DNA from: Nitrospirota bacterium
GTDB lineage: Bacteria; Nitrospirota; Nitrospiria; Nitrospirales; UBA8639
Direction: 5' to 3'
Assembly: GCA_003695915.1 (NCBI GenBank)
Contig: RFGF01000059.1
Location: 1 to 39,660 of the forward strand
DNA length: 39,660 nt
A model generated the notes under the pieces. It worked only from the letters and a program-made list of their open reading frames with translations. It did no database searches and was not told where the DNA came from. Below, one piece after another: positions 2,890-4,167 of this stretch (positions are counted from its first letter, which is position 1; each line of letters opens with the position of its first letter). The translations under genes and the position numbers were made by a program.

Positions 2890-2959
2890 GATCTGCAAAC
2901 CTTTTCCTCTGCTTTGTATTTCTCGCACTTGCCACGCTGCAACGATCGAAGAATAGACC

Positions 2960-2985
2960 AAAAAAAAGTGGGCTTTTGCCCACTT
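2960..2985 (-). terminator. Intrinsic terminator/attenuator in the rimP leader
   Basis: On the minus strand an 8-bp perfect stem (AAGTGGGC/GCCCACTT, 2966-2973 and 2978-2985) with a 4-nt loop is followed by an uninterrupted run of eight T. It lies about 70 nt upstream of the rimP start and in the same direction. The next gene upstream is divergent, so the hairpin cannot terminate an upstream minus-strand gene. It must act inside the rimP-nusA-infB leader, as an attenuator. Confidence 0.85.
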
Positions 2986-3291
2986 GGTTGATTTCAGCTT
3001 AGCACTTCTCCCTACGAAACGCAAGATTTATGAAGTTCGGATCGCCACCGCTCCCAATCTCCAACGCGATATACTCCCACCGTTTCAATCTACAGGCCCC
3101 AGGCTTCATCGAGCCAAACCTTGCTCTGGATTGGGAAGAACTATGAAGCGACAATCCACAGAGAACCTACCATAGGCATAAGCAGACGCTCATGGTAGAC
3201 TGCAGGGTGTCAGATCAAAGGCACCTAGTATCGGCACTCGCGATGGCGGTTCGGCAGTCCACAATCTCTCATCCAGAGCCAGACTAGACCG
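2986..3291 (-). promoter_or_regulatory. Probable structured leader/promoter region of rimP-nusA-infB
   Basis: This 306-base gap separates the divergent rimP and MinD-like genes. It contains inverted repeats that could fold on the minus-strand transcript: TCCCAATC/GATTGGGA (3052-3059 with 3129-3136), GGCT/AGCC (3102-3105 with 3112-3115) and CTACCAT/ATGGTAG (3167-3173 with 3192-3198). No convincing sigma70 promoter was found for either direction, and no tRNA is present, unlike the metY of E. coli. The leader role is inferred from position and from the terminator before rimP. Confidence 0.4.
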
Positions 3292-4167
3292 ATGGCCACC
3301 ATTGTTTCGATCGCTTCGGGGAAAGGAGGAGTTGGCAAGAGTGTGGTGGCGAGCAACCTCGCGTTGCTTCTCGCAAAAACCGGCAAGCGAGTGATCGTGG
3401 TTGATCTGGATACCGGAGGGGCCAACCTCCATGTCCTGTTCGGCCTATTCCACCCTCCGTCGACCTTAACGGATTTTCTCAACAACCGCATCAAGGACTT
3501 AGCGGAGATCGCTTATCCCGTTCAAGGCTGTTCTCCCCTTCGATTGATTCCTGGCACAGGGGAGACCTTACTCACGGCCAACCTGCCACATAGCAAGAAA
3601 AAGCGTTTGATCCGATGTCTCCAACGACTGGACGCGGAATTGATTCTCGTGGATGTCGGAGCCGGCACCCACTATCACGCACTGGACTTTTTTCTGCTGG
3701 CCGATCGCTATATTGGCGTAGCGACTCCCGATCCCACTTCGGTGGTCGATCTCTATCGCTTCATCAAACTCGCGGCCATCCGCAAAGTGCTCACGGCATT
3801 TCTTGCCCGCGATCCGGTAGCCGAACATCTCCTCAACCAGGATTTTCACAGTATCACCGAAGTAATCGAGGCCGCGGGGAAAACTCATGAATCGAGCGCA
3901 GAGATCGCCAGAAGCGTATTGCACGATTTTCGTCCGATGCTGGTGTTAAACCGAATGACCAACGGATCCCGAATCAACACGCTTCATCTACAAAACCTAT
4001 TGAAACAATATGTCGGGACAGATCTCGAGTTGTTGGGAAAAATCCCTGAGGATCAATCCGTGCAACTCTCGGTGCTCAATTATCTTCCGGTCGTGGAATT
4101 TGCTCCGTCTTCGCCAGCGGCCACAGCGTTTCGGGTCATCGCCGAGCGCCTGACAGCCAAGCTATGA
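3292..4167 (+). CDS. MinD/ParA-like (FlhG-type) P-loop ATPase
   Basis: A 291-residue ATPase of the MinD/ParA/Mrp superfamily, which typically dimerises on ATP binding and positions or regulates partner proteins. The deviant Walker A motif GKGGVGKS spans residues 10-17, with the signature lysine at 11 and the P-loop lysine at 16. A VVDLDTGGAN stretch follows and a VDVGAGT switch motif lies near 120. The C-terminal region (VLNRMTNGSRINTLHLQNLL, then GKIPEDQSVQLSV) is typical of FlhG/YlxH-like proteins. There is no clear amphipathic C-terminal membrane helix. The start ATG has only a weak ribosome-binding site; an upstream in-frame ATG at 3244 is blocked by a stop. The gene stands alone between divergent rimP and convergent SWIM genes, so the partner is unknown. 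Confidence 0.85.
   Translation: MATIVSIASGKGGVGKSVVASNLALLLAKTGKRVIVVDLDTGGANLHVLFGLFHPPSTLTDFLNNRIKDLAEIAYPVQGCSPLRLIPGTGETLLTANLPHSKKKRLIRCLQRLDAELILVDVGAGTHYHALDFFLLADRYIGVATPDPTSVVDLYRFIKLAAIRKVLTAFLARDPVAEHLLNQDFHSITEVIEAAGKTHESSAEIARSVLHDFRPMLVLNRMTNGSRINTLHLQNLLKQYVGTDLELLGKIPEDQSVQLSVLNYLPVVEFAPSSPAATAFRVIAERLTAKL

Follow-up and report, generated by a model that had tools for sequence, protein, structure and literature searches.

A conserved terminator hairpin before rimP-nusA-infB in Nitrospirales, probably a NusA feedback attenuator of the rimP-leader type

What does a terminator-like hairpin do at the head of an operon, where there is no preceding gene for it to terminate? The question is raised by a 39,660-nt stretch of DNA, the window analysed here, from a Nitrospirota bacterium (contig RFGF01000059.1, assembly GCA_003695915.1; order Nitrospirales, UBA8639). 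On its minus strand, a hairpin with a T-run is followed by a gap of 70 nt, the rimP ATG at 2889, nusA and the start of infB. The first gene of the operon, rimP (2413-2889, reading-frame end taken from the ORF list), was recognized by its RimP_N (6.4e-21) and RimP C-terminal (2.5e-09) domains, nusA (1123-2355, counted from a chosen ATG at 2355) by NusA_N (4.5e-41) and KH_5 (4.5e-30), and the N-terminal part of infB (1-1098), the gene for IF2, which is cut by the window edge, by IF2_N (8.2e-24). The hairpin opens an operon of essential genes for ribosome assembly and transcription. An earlier note on this DNA had stated that the hairpin has no upstream gene to terminate, and this holds: the neighbouring gene on the other side of rimP (3292-4167, plus strand) is divergent, so that no minus-strand gene lies directly upstream. 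This neighbour encodes a ParA/MinD-type ATPase; of the 45 other genomes of the family, 29 have a relative (56-77% identical stretches) at their rimP locus.

The hairpin, AAGUGGGC-AAAA-GCCCACUU, occupies positions 2966-2985 and reads on the minus strand as the stem arm AAGTGGGC (2978-2985), the loop AAAA (2974-2977) and the stem arm GCCCACTT (2966-2973). It runs into eight T at 2960-2967, the first two of which are paired inside the stem. Read on the plus strand, the hairpin is followed by GGTTGATTTC and the T-run is absent, so the T tail belongs to the minus strand only. The isolated hairpin folds with -13.3 kcal/mol (z -2.44), and a comparable hairpin with T tail, for which the stem had to be perfect and 8 bp or longer, the loop short and five or more of the next eight bases T, arose in 1 of 1,000 dinucleotide shuffles of 2890-3291. 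Both the sequence and these shuffles bear out the earlier description of a perfect 8-bp hairpin with eight T on the minus strand before rimP. The hairpin and its U-tract (2960-2985) are a real intrinsic-terminator sequence pointing at rimP-nusA-infB.

Elements of this kind are already known. The available part of Naville and Gautheret (2010, PMC2965389) describes the rimP-leader as an attenuator hairpin before rimP with NusA as the best candidate reader, having a GGGc...gCCC stem with conserved letters and a T-stretch, placed 4-130 nt before rimP, operon-specific and lacking a visible antiterminator. The window leader shares these traits: GGGC-AAAA-GCCC lies inside the 8-bp stem and is followed by T8, 70 nt separate the end of the T-run from the ATG at 2889, and an upstream antiterminator, sought as a copy of at least 6 nt of the 3' arm, was found in 0/46, 0/32 and 1/8 genomes in the order's three families. 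The window leader is a further rimP-leader. It differs from the published description in that its conserved letters extend to AGUGGGC/GCCCACU, in a T-run of exactly eight throughout the family, and in a promoter-like block located 12-13 nt upstream in most of the order. No paper on a rimP-leader in Nitrospira appeared among the matches listed in the open-licence literature, which is weak evidence; the spread of the element through Nitrospirales and other Nitrospirota seems to be an addition to the known rimP-leader.

Comparison with related genomes shows how closely the leader is kept. The window's genome is the sole member of its genus in the genome collection, so that the comparison begins at the level of the family. 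Within the family, 46 of the 48 genomes searched have a RimP match, and the hairpin lies upstream of rimP in 46/46 of these. A gapless profile of the 46 leaders shows stem letters that are identical except for one C to T, a T-run of exactly 8 in every leader, and 12 different loop sequences; one family genome (G008) has a GTGGGT stem. The RimP match is missing in G015, where the hairpin is immediately followed by the start of RimP, which then gives way to N, and in G025 (64% complete), which has neither a RimP match nor the exact hairpin pattern. Across the order, the GUGGG/CCCAC core was present in 86/86 rimP leaders read (46 + 32 + 8, three families). The earlier note would have been refuted by a hairpin lacking in close relatives, and these counts show the contrary, with the hairpin retained in 46/46 leaders of the family and its core in 86/86 of the order.

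The element is also a single-site feature. The exact pattern GTGGGCN4GCCCACT6 occurs in 104 of the 117 genomes of the order, in single copy each, including one match in the window's own genome, while a permuted stem occurs in 0/117; for the 104, the position before rimP was confirmed in the genomes whose leaders were read. Among the 13 genomes without an exact match, G008 carries its GTGGGT stem, while in G251 and six family f27 genomes the hairpin is present but differs in loop, stem end or T-run. The other five are G025 and four members of family f28, and they lack a RimP match too. In family f28, RimP match and exact leader pattern are both absent from 4/4 genomes (G235, G237, G239 and G241; 73-96% complete), a possible joint loss of RimP and the leader pattern.

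Outside the order, the core was found in 3/3 leaders from the remainder of the class, in 58/93 leaders read from the remainder of the phylum sample and in 28/30 leaders read from the phylum of a Clostridia genome. It was missing within 300 nt upstream of rimP in 35/93 and 2/30 leaders of the last two samples, and is not universal across the bacteria examined. The sample from the rest of the phylum comprised 96 genomes outside the class with a RimP match, of which G055, G059 and G117 were left out (matches near contig ends or split); G119, with 88 bases upstream only, was scored as a miss, and weak second RimP matches in four genomes were disregarded. For the Clostridia phylum, 41 genomes were searched, 40 had a RimP match and 30 leaders were read. 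Since the count required exact GTGGG/CCCAC, the invariance of the core outside the order is by construction; within the order there were zero failures. Four rearranged 5' arms used as controls were found in at most 3/93 and 1/30 leaders of these two samples, and three C-rich arms in at most 2/93 and 0/30. It is the stem letters that recur, and not the pairing alone, in groups as far apart as Nitrospirota and the Clostridia phylum, with one site per genome in the order, and such recurring letters point to a specific and old reader.

In the family profile, conservation besides the hairpin and T-run is confined mainly to a -35-like block, a -10-like block, the handful of bases leading into the stem and a small number of columns past the T-run. 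Reading the minus strand of the window from 3024, TTGCGT is followed by 17 nt ending in TGC, then TAAGCT, 12 nt, GTGGGC AAAA GCCCAC and eight T. The -35-like hexamer TTGCGT (3019-3024) corresponds to a conserved TTGcsTT block of the 46 leaders and is separated by a 17-nt spacer from the -10-like hexamer, which with its extension TGC-TAAGCT (2996-3004) corresponds to a conserved TGcTAggGT block. The block 12-13 nt before GTGGG is promoter-like, resembling a sigma-70-type promoter. In an unguided promoter scan, the top-scoring site lay 12-13 nt ahead of GTGGG in 33/46, 32/32 and 7/8 leaders of the three families (72/86), compared to 30/900 for shuffles of 45 family leaders in which only base composition was kept. 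The top match lies elsewhere in 13/46 family leaders, and in the window's genome the aligned promoter ranks second, with 7.7 vs 7.8 for a site at 3092. Beyond the order, the best site falls at 12-13 nt in 0/3 leaders from the rest of the class, 3/58 from the rest of the phylum and 0/28 from the Clostridia phylum. With a start about 7 nt after the -10, the transcript would begin near 2989, i.e. not downstream of 2966, and an RNA ending with the U-tract would be 30 nt long, the terminator taking up about +5 to +30. This compact geometry, in which promoter and attenuator are fused in the order, seems to be a further addition, with a streptococcal case as precedent.

The position of the promoter-like block also bears on how far the leader extends. 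Three further inverted repeats had been noted upstream (3052-3059/3129-3136, 3102-3105/3112-3115 and 3167-3173/3192-3198), and all three are present; they lie beyond the promoter block, on the side of the divergent gene, and, given the conserved block, would be upstream of the transcript. The stretch 3000-3291 contains 4 perfect repeats with arms of at least 7 nt separated by up to 80 nt. Shuffles have 0.83 on average and 2/100 reach 4, which makes for a mild excess located between two divergent promoters; the repeat 3102-3105/3112-3115, with 4-bp arms, falls outside this count. The proposal of a structured leader up to 3291 did not stand. The 402-nt stretch as a whole folds with a z of -0.25, the family profile, which extends up to 90 nt before the core, is poorly conserved ahead of the -35, and the 25 best rows of a BLAST comparison with other leaders do not go beyond 3027. 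When eight sub-stretches outside the hairpin were folded against shuffles, six gave z values of -0.46 to +1.28, and 3160-3205 folded somewhat better than shuffles (z -1.81 on the minus strand, -2.23 on the plus strand). A known Rfam RNA in the leader could likewise be discarded: the covariance models of Rfam release 15 gave zero leader matches at the gathering threshold, and one sub-threshold match to a snoRNA family (3249-3297, E 0.7) is at chance level.

As the rimP-leader features looked for are present and NusA feedback has been reported in other bacteria, we read this element of the rimP-nusA-infB 5' leader as an attenuator through which NusA exerts feedback, with a probability of about 0.75. 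Transcription would start near 2989, and the first ~30 nt of the RNA would form the GUGGGC/GCCCAC hairpin followed by U8, at which a share of the RNA polymerases would stop before rimP. NusA, a product of the same operon, would favour hairpin formation and pausing on the U-tract, so that a high level of NusA would lead to more termination and a low level to read-through, resulting in negative feedback on RimP, NusA and IF2. In this scheme we infer the start site, the termination in vivo and the action of NusA as effector in this organism; the choice of NusA rests on analogy because no antiterminator or other sensor is visible, and a terminator at about +5 to +30 would leave no room for an upstream antiterminator. 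A more specific version, which we regard as tentative and rather doubtful, is that NusA reads the hairpin letter by letter, and that the promoter and attenuator in Nitrospirales form a ~65-bp module measuring NusA loading without RNA switching. The decision to terminate or continue would then be taken at about +30, near the handover from sigma to NusA, at the earliest possible point.

The same attenuator could instead have RimP, IF2 or another factor as the specific reader of GUGGG/CCCAC, leaving NusA as a general helper only. The stem letters, and not pairing alone, are kept across groups, which generic NusA-stimulated termination would not need, and the available text of PMC2965389 also raises the possibility of feedback by RimP. 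We nevertheless consider this unlikely, as the accessible parts of PMC12288461 and PMC6511841 report NusA feedback on the operon in B. subtilis and E. coli and contain no report of feedback by RimP or IF2. It is less probable still that the terminator ends a small RNA or antisense transcript from 3000-3291, shielding rimP from read-through. The mild repeat excess of that stretch, the folding of 3160-3205 and the top-ranked promoter match of the window's genome at 3092 would fit such a transcript, but the conserved promoter-like block stands between the stretch and the hairpin, the Rfam and BLAST searches described above returned nothing that favours it, and the hairpin sequence is specific to rimP leaders.

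The least probable reading, to which we give very little weight, takes AGTGGGC-N4-GCCCACT, a palindrome that closely follows the promoter, as a DNA operator bound by a dimeric repressor. Its perfect symmetry, fixed letters and fixed distance from the promoter within the order are what such a site would show. However, the distance from GTGGG to CCCAC ranges from 4 to 12 nt across groups, for which the operator was set aside, and the T-rich tail is retained. Moreover, at the second position out from the core, leaders of the order have an A-U or G-U pair, and 47/58 leaders from the rest of the phylum and 26/28 from the Clostridia phylum have G-C. Variable arm spacing and a changed outer pair are easier to reconcile with an RNA stem than with a fixed-spacing DNA operator; nothing on pairing can be learned from the core pairs, as they are invariant in these counts.

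The NusA attenuator has counterparts of differing architecture. According to the consulted portion of a review (PMC12288461), NusA of B. subtilis autoregulates by termination in the leader; that leader is 180 nt long (quoted in the available text of PMC2965389), compared to about 100 nt in all here, with the terminator predicted at about +5 to +30. The closest parallel is the rimP-nusA-infB operon of S. agalactiae, in which, as far as the accessible text of PMC4448216 goes, an intrinsic terminator stops transcription 31 nt after the start and NusA feedback was suggested; termination was there seen by RNA-seq, whereas in the window it is deduced from sequence. The metY-rimP-nusA-infB operon of E. 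coli has a similar hairpin, GGGC-TTTAG-GCCC with seven T, just before rimP, and is said to be regulated by NusA. Its leader, unlike that of the window, contains a tRNA gene, three promoters, two terminators upstream of rimP and RNase III sites (PMC6511841, available part). In a Rho mutant, rimP fusions fell and did not rise (PMC7815308, in the text available), and the accessible portion of PMC8060035 makes no mention of ylxS or rimP. The compact form in the order, with a predicted terminated product of about 30 nt, offers a minimal template for a purified-system test of the NusA feedback idea.

A different arrangement is seen in family f10 of the same phylum, in which 8 of the 9 leaders examined (L065, L079, L081, L084, L085, L087, L124 and L127) carry a 5-6 nt copy of the terminator 3' arm (CACTC/CACTCT) upstream of the hairpin at a near-constant distance. 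This copy is a possible antiterminator of a sort lacking in the window's order; the f10 genomes are related, so the eight leaders are not eight independent cases. Just after the T-run (2955-2959, minus strand), a G is present in 45/46 family leaders and a T five bases on is invariant (46/46), and the T-run of E. coli is followed by a similar TGTCTT. These conserved letters are possibly a pause or release signal.
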